Below, piece after piece: positions 52,807-60,514 of a stretch of 64,000 bases of DNA (within the stretch, counting starts at the first letter, position 1; each line of letters starts with the position of its first letter). Under the pieces are notes generated by a model. It was not told the DNA's origin, made no database searches, and was given only the letters and a program-made list of their open reading frames with translations. The position numbers and the translations under genes are program-made. The DNA is from Bacteroidota bacterium. Its GTDB lineage: Bacteria > Bacteroidota > Bacteroidia > UKL13-3. The stretch spans positions 1 through 64,000 of the forward strand of contig JAIXSO010000005.1 in the NCBI GenBank assembly GCA_027484685.1, written 5' to 3'.

Positions 52807-53268
52807 ATGAGTGAAATAGAAATATATAAATCTGCTGACGATGCAATTGAACTTCAAGTAAGTTTTGATAATGACACCGTTTGGTTAAATCGTCATCAAT
52901 TAGCTTTTCTTTTTGACAGAGATATAAAAACAATCGGTAAGCATATCAAAAATATTTTTGATGAAAAAGAATTAGATAATAATTCAACTGTCGCAAAATT
53001 TGCGACAGTTCAAATGGAAGGTGAAAGAGAAATAAAACGAGAAATTGAGCATTATAACCTTGATGTAATCATCTCGGTAGGTTACAGAGTAAAATCAAAG
53101 CAAGGCACTCAATTCAGACAATGGGCAACCCAACGTTTGAAAGACTACTTGGTGCAAGGTTATGCAATAAATGAAAAGCGTTTAAAAGAAGCCAATAGTA
53201 AATTACAAGATTTACAAAAAGCCATTACTTTGGCTGTGAAAGCATGGAGTAATTTTGCACATTCTTAA
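52807..53268 (+). pseudogene. Truncated RhuM/Rha-type virulence family gene
   Basis: The 153 codons match the front half of RhuM-family proteins: VWLNRHQLAFLFDRDIKTIGKHIKNIF, KFATVQMEGEREIKREIEHYNLDVIISVGYRVKS, and GTQFRQWATQRLKDYLVQGYAINEKRL. Complete members are more than 300 residues. Here the frame departs after LQKAITLAVKAW and stops where a CGTCATTGCGA-type repeat begins (53276), so the gene was cut by the repeat or a linked deletion. A perfect TATATTTG lies eight bases upstream of its start. Confidence 0.8.
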
Positions 53269-53577: not shown

Positions 53578-55212
53578 ATGAGGTATATTTTTAATATATT
53601 ATTGTGTTTTTGGGGTTTAGCAGCCTTGGCACAAGATGAGGTAAAACCAAAGTTAACGGTAGAGCAATACATTGAAAAGTACTCGGCTTTGGCAGTAGAG
53701 GAAATGTACCGCAGTCATATTCCGGCAAGTATTACTTTGGCGCAAGGTATTTTAGAAAGTGGTAATGGAAACAGCCGTTTAGCTACCCAAGCCAATAACC
53801 ATTTTGGTATAAAATGTAAAACTACTTGGAAAGGACAAACCATGTATGAAGATGATGATGCTCCGCAAGAATGTTTTAGAAAATACGATGCTGCCATTGA
53901 TAGTTACCGCGATCATTCTGACTTTTTGATGAACAATAAGCGTTATGCTTTTTTATTTGATTTGGATAGTAAAGATTACAAAGGTTGGGCTTACGGACTA
54001 AAAAAAGCCGGCTATGCCACCAATCCTCAGTACCCTGAATTGCTTATTACTTTTATTGAAAAGCATGGTTTGCATAAGTACGATGAAATAAAAAGAAGCG
54101 AAGAGGAAGAAAAAGAGCAAGCTGAGGAAAAAGCCCAAATAGTAAAAACTTATGGTAAAGAAATAATGATTAATGGAGTGCCTGCCATTACTGCCAAAGC
54201 CAACGAAAGTTTTGCGCAAATTGCGTTGAATTACGATATTAAAGTTTATCAATTATACAAATACAACGATTTACAAAAAGACGATGAATGCCATGAAGGC
54301 GATACCATTTTTTTAAAAAACAAAAAAAATAAGGCTGAAATAGAAACTTGTATTTTTGGAAAAGGCGATAATACACATAAAATTTCCCAACGTTATGCAG
54401 TTAAATTGGAGAAAATACTTTCTCGTAATAATTTGGTTTTGAATCAACAACCTGCTGTAGGCCAAGTTATTTACTTAAACAGCAAACGTGCTGATAATAT
54501 AGTAATTGCGGATACTGCCATTCAACGCGATTCGGTAGAAATAGTAAAAACTGAAACTGCTCCTAATGTAATAAAGGTAGATACAATAATAATGAACGAA
54601 ACCGTTTATGAAGACCCTAAAAAGAACATTGAAACCATGTTTCCTGTTAATGAAAATACATTAAGTTATTTTGACACTTTAGAGGAAAAAAAATCGGAAT
54701 TATCGTTTTTTCATACGGTGCAAGCAGGCGAAACTTTATATAGCATTGCCAAAAAATACAATGTAAAAGTAGATGCCTTGCAATTTTTGAACGCTATGAA
54801 AAATAACAATATTGAAGTTGGACAAAAGTTAATTATTAACCCAAATTTACCAAGTGCCGATACCAAAGAACCTCAGCCCGTTCCAGGTTATCACATTGTT
54901 CGTCATGGCGAAACTTTATTTGCTATTTCAAAAATGTATAATATTTCAGTTTCTGACTTGAAGGCTATTAATACATTGATAAACAATGATATAAAAATTG
55001 ACCAAAAGTTAATAATTGTTCCTGTAAAAAACAATTCAGGAGGCGAAGTAAAAACACCAACAAGCAGTGCAGATGCATTTTATTATACTATTGAAAAAGG
55101 CGAAACGTTATTTGGTATATGTCGAAAATTCAATGTTTCGATTACCGATTTAAGAAAACTGAACAACAATTTAAGCCAAGCAAAAGCAGGCGAAAAAATT
55201 AGAATCAGGTAA
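53578..55212 (+). CDS. Glucosaminidase-domain peptidoglycan hydrolase with LysM repeats
   Basis: An exported cell-wall hydrolase of 544 residues. A signal peptide (to LAALAQ) precedes a mannosyl-glycoprotein endo-beta-N-acetylglucosaminidase domain (about 25-165) with the catalytic Glu in GILESGNGNSRL, AYHFGIKC-like NNHFGIKCK, and AYGLKKAGYATNPQYPE. Then come four LysM-like units, the first weak (about 205-260) and three clear ones: TVQAGETLYSIAKKYNV, IVRHGETLFAISKMYNI, TIEKGETLFGICRKFNV. ATG at 53578 is preferred over in-frame TTG 53569. It should bind and cut peptidoglycan. Confidence 0.92.
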   Translation: MRYIFNILLCFWGLAALAQDEVKPKLTVEQYIEKYSALAVEEMYRSHIPASITLAQGILESGNGNSRLATQANNHFGIKCKTTWKGQTMYEDDDAPQECFRKYDAAIDSYRDHSDFLMNNKRYAFLFDLDSKDYKGWAYGLKKAGYATNPQYPELLITFIEKHGLHKYDEIKRSEEEEKEQAEEKAQIVKTYGKEIMINGVPAITAKANESFAQIALNYDIKVYQLYKYNDLQKDDECHEGDTIFLKNKKNKAEIETCIFGKGDNTHKISQRYAVKLEKILSRNNLVLNQQPAVGQVIYLNSKRADNIVIADTAIQRDSVEIVKTETAPNVIKVDTIIMNETVYEDPKKNIETMFPVNENTLSYFDTLEEKKSELSFFHTVQAGETLYSIAKKYNVKVDALQFLNAMKNNNIEVGQKLIINPNLPSADTKEPQPVPGYHIVRHGETLFAISKMYNISVSDLKAINTLINNDIKIDQKLIIVPVKNNSGGEVKTPTSSADAFYYTIEKGETLFGICRKFNVSITDLRKLNNNLSQAKAGEKIRIR

Positions 55213-55306
55213 AAAAATTAAATATTTAGGTGCATTGCAACTAATTTTACTTTGCTTAAATCAATCAAATCATTATCATTGTAATTATTATTAAACTTAT
55301 TCAATA

Positions 55307-56008
55307 ATGAAAAAAATATACTTTTCAGTAATTAGTACGTTGTTATTTTTTGGAGCTCAAGCTCAAATATCGTATGGTTTTGATTATAAAGAAAACTACG
55401 AAAGCTTTACCAATAAAGATGCTGGTTCTGCTATAACAATAGCTTTGTATAATGCTAACCAAGATAGCACTACACGTCCATATTCAGCTATTTTATCAGT
55501 AATTGATAACACTACTAAACCCAGCTTAAACGCAATTAACAAAACACATTTTGATATGCCAGCTCAGCAAAAAGTTGAGTTTTTACCTGGTCAAAAAGGT
55601 TATAGAAATATCATAAATGTACCTATTAATCCAATTGCTGATCCTGTATTTTGGGGACAAAGAGTTTTTGAATTAAATTTAGGAACTTTAGAAGGTTTTG
55701 AAGTTGGAAATTTGGTTAATGGACACGAGTATTTTACTATAGTAATTGATTACGATGGCAGTAAAATTGGTGTTCCAAGAGTTAATAAAAATATGTTTAC
55801 CATTTACCCTAACCCAAGTTCTAATAATATTTATGTTACCGGGGTTGAGTGCCAAAGTATTCAAGTTTTAGATTTAATGGGCAAAATAGTATTAGACCAA
55901 AATTTACCAGGTAATCAAATCAATATTGAAACATTGCCAGCAGGTATTTATGTTTTAAATGCAATGAGCGATAAAGGATTGGTTACTCAAAAAATTGTAA
56001 AACAATAA
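55307..56008 (+). CDS. T9SS-secreted protein of unknown function
   Basis: A 233-residue secreted protein. Signal peptide to FGAQA-QI; a soluble beta-type domain (about 20-165); and a C-terminal T9SS sorting domain starting at YPNPSSNNIYV with the GLVTQKIVKQ end. Since the mature domain is short, this is one of the small cargo proteins of type IX secretion. No enzyme motif is visible. A terminator follows. Confidence 0.88.
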   Translation: MKKIYFSVISTLLFFGAQAQISYGFDYKENYESFTNKDAGSAITIALYNANQDSTTRPYSAILSVIDNTTKPSLNAINKTHFDMPAQQKVEFLPGQKGYRNIINVPINPIADPVFWGQRVFELNLGTLEGFEVGNLVNGHEYFTIVIDYDGSKIGVPRVNKNMFTIYPNPSSNNIYVTGVECQSIQVLDLMGKIVLDQNLPGNQINIETLPAGIYVLNAMSDKGLVTQKIVKQ

Positions 56009-56025
56009 TTGATAAAAAAATATGG

Positions 56026-56057
56026 AAAAGCCGGAGTTTTATAAACTTCGGCTTTTT
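56026..56057 (+). terminator. Terminator after the T9SS gene
   Basis: AAAGCCGGAGTTT pairs with AAACTTCGGCTTT (one G-U) around a short TATA loop and is followed by seven T. It separates the T9SS gene from the serB-serA fusion. Confidence 0.8.
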
Positions 56058-56096
56058 TTATGTTCATTAGTTCGTAAATAGATTTATTTTTACCAC

Positions 56097-57893
56097 ATGC
56101 AACAACCTTGGTTTATAATTGATTTTGATAGCACTTTTACGCAAGTAGAAGCTATGGAAGAATTGGCTGCCATTAGCTTAAAAAACGATCCTGAAAAAGA
56201 GGCAATTATTGAGCAAATAAAACATTTAACTGATTTGGCTATGGATGGAAAAATGCCATTTAACAAATCGTTAAAGGCTCGAATTGCGCTGCTTTCCGCT
56301 AAAAAATACCATTTAAATATGTTGGTAAATAAGCTACGTAAAAAGGTGTCACCATCATTTGCTCGCAACAAAGAGTTTTTTAAAAAATACCAAGGCCGAG
56401 TTTTAATTGTGTCAGGTGGATTTAAAGAATTTATTGCGCCCGTAGTTAAAAGTTTTTTTATAGATGAAGATTGCATTTATGCCAACACATTTATTTACGA
56501 TAAAAAAAATAATATCATTGGTTCTCACGAAGAAAATCCTTTGGCACAAGAAGGAGGAAAAGTAAAATTACTAAAGCAATTAAAGTTAAAAGGACAGGTT
56601 ATAGCCATTGGCGATGGATACACCGATTACCAAATGCGCGAAAGTGGAATGGCTGAACAGTTTTTTGCTTTTACCGAAAATATAGCTCGTGAACGTGTAT
56701 TGGCCAAAGCCGATTACATTGCTCCAAGCTTAGATGAAATTTTATATAAAATGAAATTGCCTATGGCACTCTCTTATCCTAAAAGCCGAATAAATGCAGT
56801 TCTTTTAGGTAAAGAAACTTTTGCCACAGCACCTTATTTTAAATTAGAAGGATACAATGTTATCAAACGCGATTCATTATCGAATAAAGCATTAACTGAT
56901 TTGAAAAATGCTTCTATCATTGTTTCATCTTTAAAGCAAGAAATAACTAATTTAAATAGTTTTCCTAAACTAATAAGCTTGGCAGTTTGGGGTAATAATA
57001 ACCAGCAGTTTAATACAAACATGGCGCAACAAATGGCAGTGCCTATTTTTAGTTCGCCTTACGCCAATACACGGAGTGTGGTAGAGTTAGGTTTGGGTTT
57101 TATGTTTCAATTATCGAGGCAAACCAATACCGAATTGCGAGGCAAAAAAATTGGAATAATTGGTTATGGAAATGCGGGCAGTTTAATGGGTGTATTAGCG
57201 CAGAATTTGGGAATGGATGTGCTTTATTTTGATGAAAAAGACCGCGCACCATTAGGTAATGCAATAGCTTGTAAATCGGTAACTGATTTGCTAAAGAAGT
57301 CGAATTATGTGGTGCTACTTCAAAGTAAAAATACCGGAACTATTTTGGTAGAAAAGGAGTTAAAGCAAATGCAGCCAAAGGCATGTTTAATTAACTTAAG
57401 TTATGATGATTCTGTGGAGTTTCAAGCTGTGTTAAAACTGATTCAGCAAAAAAAATTATTTGGCTTCGCAATGGATTTTCAGCAAGAAGAAAATTATTTG
57501 AAACTAAAACAAAGTAGTCAAATTATTGTAACGCTTAATCAAAGAAATAATACCTTAGAAACACAACAAAACATTGCAAGTTTTACGAGTGAAAAAATCA
57601 TACAATACATTAACACTGGTAATATTAGCCGTAGTTTGAATTTTCCTGATATTCAGTTACCGGCCTTGCAGGGCTCACATCGTTTTATTCATATTCATCA
57701 AAACAAACCGGGTTTGTTAGCTAAAATAAATGCTGTTTTAGCTAAACATAAAATTAATATTACCGGTCAATATTTAAAAACAAACGAAACTTTGGGATAT
57801 GTGATTACTGATGTTTCTAAAAAGTATGATAATGAAGTGATTAGTGAATTAAAGAAAATTGAAGCAACTATAAAATTCAGGGTGATTTATTAG
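56097..57893 (+). CDS. Fused phosphoserine phosphatase and degenerate phosphoglycerate dehydrogenase (SerB-SerA)
   Basis: This 598-residue protein joins two serine-pathway domains. The N-terminal HAD phosphatase (about 1-225) has motif I DFDST (Asp9, Asp11), motif II VSGGF, and motif IV GDGYTD (Asp173, Asp177), so it should hydrolyse phosphoserine. From about 235 it follows E. coli-type SerA: the NAD fold GIIGYGNAG (356-361), YANTRSV near 320, and an ACT domain HIHQNKPG (His534, Asn536) with INITGQ (Asn554), which are the serine-binding positions. But the catalytic Arg of the NASRG motif is Tyr436 (NLSYD), and the catalytic His of LTPHIGG is Asn481 (VTLNQ). The Glu position remains. A dead dehydrogenase part is inferred. 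No other serine gene lies beside it. Confidence 0.88.
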   Translation: MQQPWFIIDFDSTFTQVEAMEELAAISLKNDPEKEAIIEQIKHLTDLAMDGKMPFNKSLKARIALLSAKKYHLNMLVNKLRKKVSPSFARNKEFFKKYQGRVLIVSGGFKEFIAPVVKSFFIDEDCIYANTFIYDKKNNIIGSHEENPLAQEGGKVKLLKQLKLKGQVIAIGDGYTDYQMRESGMAEQFFAFTENIARERVLAKADYIAPSLDEILYKMKLPMALSYPKSRINAVLLGKETFATAPYFKLEGYNVIKRDSLSNKALTDLKNASIIVSSLKQEITNLNSFPKLISLAVWGNNNQQFNTNMAQQMAVPIFSSPYANTRSVVELGLGFMFQLSRQTNTELRGKKIGIIGYGNAGSLMGVLAQNLGMDVLYFDEKDRAPLGNAIACKSVTDLLKKSNYVVLLQSKNTGTILVEKELKQMQPKACLINLSYDDSVEFQAVLKLIQQKKLFGFAMDFQQEENYLKLKQSSQIIVTLNQRNNTLETQQNIASFTSEKIIQYINTGNISRSLNFPDIQLPALQGSHRFIHIHQNKPGLLAKINAVLAKHKINITGQYLKTNETLGYVITDVSKKYDNEVISELKKIEATIKFRVIY

Positions 57894-58006
57894 TGTAAAT
57901 TAAAGTTTACGCAATATTTTATACTAAAACAGTTATTATTGCCTTTGTTCTCATTTAAACCTAAAAAACAATAGTAAATACTCTACTCTATATTTTAAAT
58001 TTATTA

Positions 58007-60514
58007 ATGCAAAAAATCTTTTGTTTTTTACTCCTTGTATTGGGTATTTCTATTGCAGTTAAAGCTCAAAACGATAAGGCAATTATTAGTGGTACAGTTA
58101 AGGATAGCATGGGGCAATTGGCCGAAGGTGTTACTGTTTCGGTAATTGGCCAAAAAAATACTGTGGTTACCAATGAAGATGGTTTTTATAAAATTTTGGT
58201 AGATGCCAATAATGCTGTTGAGTTAAAGTTTAATTATTTTAGTCAAAAAGGGCAAACATTTAGTTTACCTGCATTGGCTCCAAACCAAAAATACGAATTA
58301 AGTCCACGCTTAAATATTAGTCTAACTTTAGTAGATTTTATTGTTAAAGATGAAAGATACCGTGAACAAGCTAGTACATTTACCATAGATTCAAGGCAAT
58401 TAACCATTAATCCGGCTCCAATGCCTGGAGTTGAACAAATTTTAAAAACTTTACCCGGTGTTTCTTCTAACAATGAATTAAGTGCGCAATACAATGTGCG
58501 TGGAGGAAATTTTGACGAAAATTTAGTTTATGTAAATGATATTGAAATATACAGGCCTTTTTTGCCAAGAAGTGGTCAGCAAGAAGGTTTAAGTTTTATA
58601 CATTCTGATTTGGTAAAAAGTATCAAATTTAGTGCAGGTGGATTTGAAGCCAAATATGGCGATAAAATGAGTTCGGTATTAGATATTAAATACAAAACGC
58701 CTAAAAAAATTACTTCATCCATAAATATTGGATTATTAGGAGTGCAAGCTGCAACCGAAGGTGCTTCAAAGAATTTGCGTTTTACTTATTTAATTGGAGC
58801 CAGGTATTGGAGTAATAAATATGTGGTTTCAACCCTCGATACCAAAGGCGATTACCAACCTTCGTTTACTGATGTGCAATCACTTTTAACGTATCATTTT
58901 AGGTCTGATTTAAGCTTGAGTATTTTAGGAAGTTATGCTCAAAACAGGTATTTTTTAGTACCTACCGATAGGCAAACTACTTTTGGAACAGTGAAACAAG
59001 CTTTACAACTTAATGTGTATTTTGGTGGTGCCGATTTAATGGAATACCGAACAGCAACAGGTGCAGCTAGTTTGGTTTATAATCCAACACGTAGGCTGCA
59101 ATTAAAGTTAATTGGTTCTACATTTTATAGCAACGAAAATGAAATTTTTACCATTGAAGGTGCATATAGATTAAGTGAATTAGAAACCGACCAAAGTAGT
59201 AGCAATTTTGGAAGAGCAAAATCGCTTAGAGGTGTTGGTTATTTTATAAATAACGCCCGTAATGGAATTGAAGCAACGGTTATTAATATTGGCCATAGAG
59301 GTAATTACGATAAAGGAAAACACAATATTCAATGGGGTGCTTTTGTACAAACTGAAAATATTAACGATAGACTTAAGGAATGGAATTACAGAGATAGCGC
59401 AGGTTTTGCCCAACCTACTTTAGATGCCAATGGCAATATTACCTTACCTGATTATTTACGAACTCAGTTAAGTTTGAATACATTTAGGCTAAATGGTTAT
59501 GTGCAAAATACCATGGTTATTGATAGAAACAGCAATATGGTTTTTACTTATGGTGTGCGCAGCAATTGGTGGAGTTACACCAACGAAAATGTAATCAGTC
59601 CTAGGTTTCAGTTTGCTTTTGAACCCAATAGAAAACATAACAAACAAGTTTTAGATAACAGTAAAAATGATACCAATTGGGTAAAAAAAATGCGTAAAAA
59701 TTGGGTAATCAAAGCCTCGTATGGTTGGTATTACCAAACGCCTTTTTACCGTGAATTGCGTAATTTCCAAGGGGAATTAAATGATAACATAAAATCACAA
59801 AAATCAATTCATTATGTACTTGGCGCTGAAATGAATTTTAAGGCTTGGAAACGCCCTTTTAAATTTACTGCTGAAGCTTATTATAAAGATTTGAGTAACT
59901 TAATTCCATACGAAATTGACAATGTGCGCATTCGTTATTTTGCCGATAATACCTCAAGAGGATATGCCACAGGTGTTGATTTTAGGGTAAATGGGGAATT
60001 TGTAAGAGGAACCGAAAGTTGGGCTAGTTTAAGCTTAATGGATACCAAAGAAATAATTAGCAATCAGTTTACTACCCAAGGCGTGAAAGAAAGTGAAAGA
60101 TATATTCCAAGATTAACCAATCAAGCATTTCAGTTTGCTATTTTCTTTCAAGATTATTTGCCAAGCAATGATAAGTATAAAGTAAATTTAATGTTGGTTT
60201 ATGGTAGTGGTTTTCCATTTGGAATTCCTGACCGCAACAGGTATAACGATGTAAACTCTATGCCAAGTTACCGCAGGGTAGATATTGGTTTTACCAAAGA
60301 TTTGATTCCTGAAAAATTAAAAGCCTCTCAGCGTAATTCTTTCTTAAAGCGACATATTAAATATGCCAATCTTGCCTTAGATGTATTTAATTTATTAGGT
60401 GTTGATAATACCATTAGTTATACTTGGCTGCAAGATGCTACCGCACAAACATGGGCCGTACCCAATTATTTAACTAGCCGGAGGCTTAATATTAGGTTAC
60501 AAATGAAATTTTAG
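58007..60514 (+). CDS. TonB-dependent receptor
   Basis: An outer-membrane uptake receptor of 835 residues. Signal peptide to IAVKA-QN; a carboxypeptidase-regulatory-like domain (about 24-105, IISGTVKDSMGQLAEGVTVSVIG); a plug domain (about 120-235) with PGVEQILKTLPGVSSNNELSAQYNVRGGNFDENLVYVNDIE in pieces; and a barrel to the final LNIRLQMKF strand. Substrate is unknown, since no SusD-like gene lies beside it. It follows the SerB-SerA fusion by 113 bases, with no visible terminator in between. Confidence 0.92.
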   Translation: MQKIFCFLLLVLGISIAVKAQNDKAIISGTVKDSMGQLAEGVTVSVIGQKNTVVTNEDGFYKILVDANNAVELKFNYFSQKGQTFSLPALAPNQKYELSPRLNISLTLVDFIVKDERYREQASTFTIDSRQLTINPAPMPGVEQILKTLPGVSSNNELSAQYNVRGGNFDENLVYVNDIEIYRPFLPRSGQQEGLSFIHSDLVKSIKFSAGGFEAKYGDKMSSVLDIKYKTPKKITSSINIGLLGVQAATEGASKNLRFTYLIGARYWSNKYVVSTLDTKGDYQPSFTDVQSLLTYHFRSDLSLSILGSYAQNRYFLVPTDRQTTFGTVKQALQLNVYFGGADLMEYRTATGAASLVYNPTRRLQLKLIGSTFYSNENEIFTIEGAYRLSELETDQSSSNFGRAKSLRGVGYFINNARNGIEATVINIGHRGNYDKGKHNIQWGAFVQTENINDRLKEWNYRDSAGFAQPTLDANGNITLPDYLRTQLSLNTFRLNGYVQNTMVIDRNSNMVFTYGVRSNWWSYTNENVISPRFQFAFEPNRKHNKQVLDNSKNDTNWVKKMRKNWVIKASYGWYYQTPFYRELRNFQGELNDNIKSQKSIHYVLGAEMNFKAWKRPFKFTAEAYYKDLSNLIPYEIDNVRIRYFADNTSRGYATGVDFRVNGEFVRGTESWASLSLMDTKEIISNQFTTQGVKESERYIPRLTNQAFQFAIFFQDYLPSNDKYKVNLMLVYGSGFPFGIPDRNRYNDVNSMPSYRRVDIGFTKDLIPEKLKASQRNSFLKRHIKYANLALDVFNLLGVDNTISYTWLQDATAQTWAVPNYLTSRRLNIRLQMKF

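Follow-up and report, generated by a model that had tools for sequence, protein, structure and literature searches.

Phosphoserine phosphatases that carry an ACT domain, SerA proteins with an ACT domain, and regulatory pseudoenzymes are all already known. In Escherichia coli SerA, the substrate phosphate is bound by Arg60 and Lys141 and the carboxylate by Arg240, with His292 serving in proton transfer, and the coenzyme is held by the Rossmann glycines and an Asp; serine is bound by His344, Asn346, and Asn364, and the substrate-binding/ACT unit rotates upon serine binding (PMC6300728). Type III PGDHs, in turn, are not serine-regulated (PMC6300728). In mycobacterial SerB enzymes, it is the phosphoserine phosphatase that shows ACT-linked inhibition by L-serine (PMC10564941).

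The locus described here lies in a window of 64,000 nucleotides, by which we mean the whole stretch of DNA that was analysed. A 598-aa ORF at 56,097–57,893 on the forward strand (stop codon included) couples a phosphoserine phosphatase of the HAD type with a SerA of the E. coli type (Type II). The Pfam domains assigned to its product were HAD (residues 7–180), 2-Hacid_dh (247–512), 2-Hacid_dh_C (341–468), and ACT (531–593, through the ACT_AHAS_ss model), and residues 224–598 matched the NCBIfam model for Type II SerA (PRK11790) at 294 bits, below its cut-off of 404 bits. The HAD phosphoserine phosphatase domain spans residues 1–222 (56,097–56,762), aligns with human PSP (1nnl) and 3kd3, and is followed by the first half of the SerA substrate-binding domain (residues 228–330, 56,778–57,086), the nucleotide-binding domain, which appears catalytically dead (residues 331–470, 57,087–57,506), the second half of the substrate-binding domain (residues 471–512, 57,507–57,632), and the ACT domain (residues 528–598, 57,678–57,890), all on the forward strand. 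Upstream of the gene, a terminator-like stem-loop (56,024–56,058, forward strand; one found vs 1.4 expected by chance) weakly suggests that the fusion gene forms its own transcription unit. An operon with serC and serA was considered and rejected, since the serC-serA pair of this genome sits on a different contig and the weak terminator-like stem precedes the fusion. No known RNA element was matched in an Rfam search of positions 55,000–58,600. Elsewhere in the window, a 153-aa ORF (52,807–53,268, forward strand) matches the RhuM family (PF13310) over just the first 73 of its 252 positions and looks truncated.

The fusion was present in 17 of the 64 genomes of the window's family (f1), at 46–96% identity, with one copy ended by a contig edge; an order-level search covered the same 64 genomes as the family-level search. 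The HAD phosphatase motifs had been described as complete in the initial annotation, which is borne out by alignment to 1nnl and 3kd3: the catalytic residues D9, D11, S106, K155, D173, and D177 are all present and are invariant in family f1. Equally invariant are E18, F55, and R62, which align with Glu29, Phe58, and Arg65 of human PSP (1nnl), residues that we take to contact the substrate. Although these specificity residues match, the TIGR00338 score was 71.8 bits, below the curated cut-off of 144.15, while the cut-off of the broader HAD-IB model TIGR01488 was passed (55.2 vs 45). The fusion was also the top SerB-like match in its own genome (E-values of 9e-21 and 1.6e-8 for the fusion and the runner-up, respectively). 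The fusion protein probably serves as the cell's phosphoserine phosphatase.

The dehydrogenase half presents a different picture. The initial annotation had assigned the catalytic Arg to Tyr436 and the catalytic His to Asn481, and exactly these correspondences to Arg240 and His292 were obtained by phmmer comparison with the E. coli SerA chains 1sc6, 1yba, and 1psd and by MAFFT alignment, neither of which placed a catalytic Arg or His elsewhere in the protein. Tyr436-Asp437 replaces Arg240-Gly241 (57,402–57,407, forward strand), and Asn481-Gln482-Arg483 replaces His292-Ile293-Gly294 (57,537–57,545, forward strand). In the alignment, the phosphate-binding Arg60 corresponds to Ser278, in the first half of the substrate-binding domain, and the 18-residue loop bearing Trp139 and Lys141 is absent, with its deletion site at residues 341–346 (57,117–57,134, forward strand). 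Glu269 corresponds to Glu465, and Glu occupies that position in just 6 of the 17 family members. Whether the two replacements are conserved, a question raised by the initial annotation, received a divided answer: Tyr is found at position 436 in 14 of the 17 homologues, but the position of Asn481 varies among Asn, Gln, Arg, and Lys. Replacement of Arg60, Arg240, and His292 and deletion of the Trp139/Lys141 loop were found in all 17 homologues; because these losses are common to 17 genomes of three genera, they reflect neither chance nor sequencing error, and a frame-shift or assembly artefact was rejected on this ground. A misaligned triad was also rejected, as phmmer, MAFFT with 113 intact fusions from other families, and the PGDH-like AlphaFold2 model all concur. 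Judging from the residues lost, the dehydrogenase half of the fusion is almost certainly inactive on 3-phosphoglycerate.

Signatures of purifying selection, together with a confident predicted fold, show that this apparently dead domain is maintained. The AlphaFold2 model of the fusion protein had a pLDDT of 90, and its top Foldseek matches were Type II PGDH structures (E-value of 6e-37 to 1sc6). Between relatives within the window's genus, the dN/dS of the dead NAD domain was 0.07–0.26, with dS near saturation in some pairs, which indicates selection and more than plain drift; a decaying pseudogene was rejected on the basis of these ratios and the open reading frames. The distribution of constraint nevertheless differs between the two forms: among intact fusions, pairwise identity is higher in the dehydrogenase domains than in the HAD domain (0.64–0.70 vs 0.56), whereas in family f1 the dehydrogenase domains are the least conserved part (0.36–0.44 vs 0.70 and 0.63 in the HAD and ACT domains, respectively). 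Several residues new to the family lie at old active-site positions, including Asp437 and Arg483 (each in 16 of the 17 members); taken together, Trp298, Gly299, Tyr436, Asp437, and Arg483 are fixed in 14–17 of the 17 members and absent elsewhere. The fixation of these residues near the former catalytic centre points to a remodelled site, as opposed to simple decay. It could also mean that the remodelled pocket has come to bind a different ligand or to catalyse a different reaction, a reading that we consider very improbable, as the changes could be packing shifts after substrate loss and the varied residues in the place of His292 provide no conserved catalytic base.

The GxGxxG loop for NAD, reported at residues 356–361 in the initial annotation, is indeed present there as GYGNAG (57,162–57,179, forward strand). 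Its glycines are retained in at least 16 of the 17 family members, with L024 lacking them, and the equivalents of Asp181 and Asp264 are likewise retained in at least 16 of the 17. These five sites are all among the 23 most conserved of the 140 NAD-domain columns (P about 8e-5), and NAD binding by the dead domain is plausible. Such retention while the catalytic residues were lost would be expected if the pseudo-dehydrogenase were an NAD(H) sensor that tunes serine output to the redox state, whether by itself or jointly with serine. We nonetheless regard such a sensor as quite unlikely: the same residues can have a structural role in Rossmann folds, the LHVD segment of intact fusions is gone in family f1 along with the Trp139/Lys141 loop (the adenosine-side motif ahead of LHVD being retained), L024 is without the loop glycines, and a clade from which the NAD domain has been deleted persists without it.

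The serine-binding positions of the ACT domain present a more uniform pattern. His534, Asn536, and Asn554, already recognised as retained in the initial annotation, align with His344, Asn346, and Asn364 of E. coli SerA and are invariant in all 17 members of family f1. The same His/Asn/Asn set is invariant in all 33 degenerate proteins, 15 of which are NAD-domain-deleted, and is likewise present in the 113 intact fusions; in terms of columns, all three sites fall within the 17 invariant of the 71 ACT columns (P about 0.012). ACT conservation could instead reflect dimerisation, and the whole SerA part might be an oligomerisation scaffold only, which would keep the phosphatase dimeric or tetrameric without responding to ligands. 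The fold kept under purifying selection, the relaxed constraint on the dehydrogenase domains, and the fact that Type II PGDH ACT domains form subunit interfaces (PMC6300728) all agree with a scaffold, but a bare scaffold would not need serine-contacting side chains that are invariant in both degenerate and intact proteins, and we consider it unlikely overall.

The SerB-SerA fusion itself is already visible in public genomes, including, within the named genome collection, Hymenobacter, Pontibacter, Echinicola, Belliella, Gramella, Salegentibacter, Tenacibaculum, and others, and full-length fusions of about 41–49% identity were found in other families of the class. Arg60, Arg240, Glu269, and His292 were all present in 113 of the 115 full-length fusions examined outside family f1. 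The two exceptions were L096 (f40), in which the triad is lost, and L040 (f23, genome G085), in which Arg60 and Arg240 are lost and Glu269 and His292 are kept; the latter genome also encodes a Type III SerA, and L040 is a possible intermediate in the loss of the dehydrogenase. Proteins of 424–447 aa in families f38, f34, and f13 consist of HAD, substrate-binding, and ACT domains, with the NAD domain exactly excised, and in genus g62 of family f11, SerB and SerA-ACT are encoded by separate adjoining genes. On an unrooted tree of the HAD and ACT columns, parsimony gave five changes between the intact and degenerate states, of which at least two are forced by well-supported branches. As the root was not inferred, the direction of change rests on the wide spread of the intact form and the known activity of Type II SerA. 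Read in this direction, the window protein would have arisen by degeneration from a SerB-SerA fusion that was putatively bifunctional, suggesting that an enzyme formerly serving two steps may have turned into a self-regulated phosphatase. In two genomes of genus g11, all that is left of the fusion is an N-terminal fragment of 72 residues with about 88% identity to the window protein (L025:1525–1740, reverse strand, and L026:1266–1543, forward strand), and in L026 stop codons come after it; the fusion gene was apparently lost recently at these loci.

A search of the window's genome for a separate complete serA, as the initial annotation had proposed, recovered a 322-aa Type III SerA with VNCSRGG and LSPHIGGST motifs and without an ACT domain, encoded just downstream of serC on a contig other than that of the fusion. 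A gene for a 23S rRNA-intervening-sequence protein (PF05635; L003:756–1127, contig C1) lies between serC and serA. Type III SerA homologues were found in 58 of the 64 genomes of family f1. At the class level, a Type III SerA match below 1e-45 accompanied the degenerate fusion in 26 of 28 genomes and the intact fusion in 21 of 46, some of the proteins in this count being classed by match length and family only; counted by family, the association was 5 of 6 vs 6 of 10, respectively. No such match was found in any of the 25 fusion-bearing genomes of families f2, f14, f47, and f66; where residues were read in these four families, the fusion is intact. This pattern is consistent with the fused dehydrogenase having been lost only in the presence of a second SerA, although the Type III SerA and degenerate-fusion lineages are phylogenetically clustered and so provide no independent statistic. 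Among the exceptions, G037 carries a degenerate fusion with no Type III SerA detected, its sole other strong dehydrogenase of the superfamily being the 314-aa L204, and G392 (f34) has other dehydrogenases of the superfamily in place of Type III SerA. Genomes of family f1 without the fusion (e.g., G012, G013, G042, and G063) retain Type III SerA. Such genomes yielded no TIGR00338 SerB candidate whatever from assemblies that are about 99% complete; either their phosphoserine phosphatase is unrecognised or serine is not made by this route.

Taken as a whole, the data are probably best explained by a serine-regulated phosphatase with a pseudo-SerA receptor, the first step of the pathway being carried out by Type III SerA. 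The ancestor would have been a SerB-SerA fusion, probably with catalytic activity in each half. Phosphoglycerate dehydrogenation would then have moved to the separate, ACT-less Type III SerA next to serC, and the fused SerA would have lost its substrate-binding and proton-transfer residues while retaining its fold and the serine-binding site at the ACT dimer. Serine presumably binds at this dimer, upon which the substrate-binding/ACT unit would move as in E. coli SerA. Either the movement or an altered oligomeric state may then be transmitted to the N-terminal HAD domain and lower the phosphatase activity, where both the path and the direction, inhibition, are inferred. Since the NAD-domain-deleted relatives keep the substrate-binding/ACT unit, the NAD domain probably lies outside the transmission path. 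The serine feedback of the pathway would thereby act on SerB and not on SerA, and SerB is most likely its present target. In its broadest form the proposal is more tentative, and we give it somewhat less than an even chance: the fusion may be a metabolic pseudoenzyme formed in cis, in which the first-step half became an allosteric receptor of serine, and possibly of NAD, for the last-step half, with feedback moving from SerA to SerB, this conversion having taken place more than once in Bacteroidota and one clade having gone on to excise the NAD domain.

The pairing of SerB with a pseudo-SerA had been flagged as an undescribed combination. A search of open-access literature recovered no paper on the SerB-SerA fusion or its degenerate form; the fusion as such is widespread in Bacteroidota, where its dehydrogenase triad is normally intact. 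The natural forms make up a graded series, from adjoining SerB and SerA genes through the intact fusion and the dead-dehydrogenase fusion to the fusion without an NAD domain, in which the serine sensor is retained at every stage from enzyme to regulator. With this series it becomes testable whether feedback control can pass from a pathway's first step to its last. Genes of this kind may be mis-assigned if annotated as phosphoglycerate dehydrogenase.

Among known systems, Type II PGDH such as E. coli SerA shares with the window protein the order of substrate-binding, nucleotide-binding, substrate-binding, and ACT domains over residues 224–598 and the same serine-binding His/Asn/Asn; identity to the solved structures matched by fold is 27–30%. 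The window protein differs from E. coli SerA in the absence of Arg60, Arg240, His292, and the Trp139/Lys141 loop, and in the HAD phosphatase placed in front. The SerB-SerA fusions of Cytophagales and Flavobacteriales have the same architecture, at about 41–49% identity over the full length, but both of their active sites look intact, whereas the dehydrogenase of the window protein is apparently dead and has one loop shorter by 18 residues. With the 424–447 aa proteins of families f38, f34, and f13 it shares the HAD domain, both halves of the substrate-binding domain, and the ACT serine triad; these proteins have fully excised the NAD-binding domain, which the window protein retains in its dead form. 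Mycobacterial SerB and SerB2 are likewise phosphoserine phosphatases with ACT domains, and the inhibition by L-serine reported for them (PMC10564941) is presumed here. Their order is ACT-ACT-HAD, with two ACT domains instead of one and no remnant of a dehydrogenase, and the serine contacts of SerB2 (E33, R103, and T136) differ from those of the fusion.
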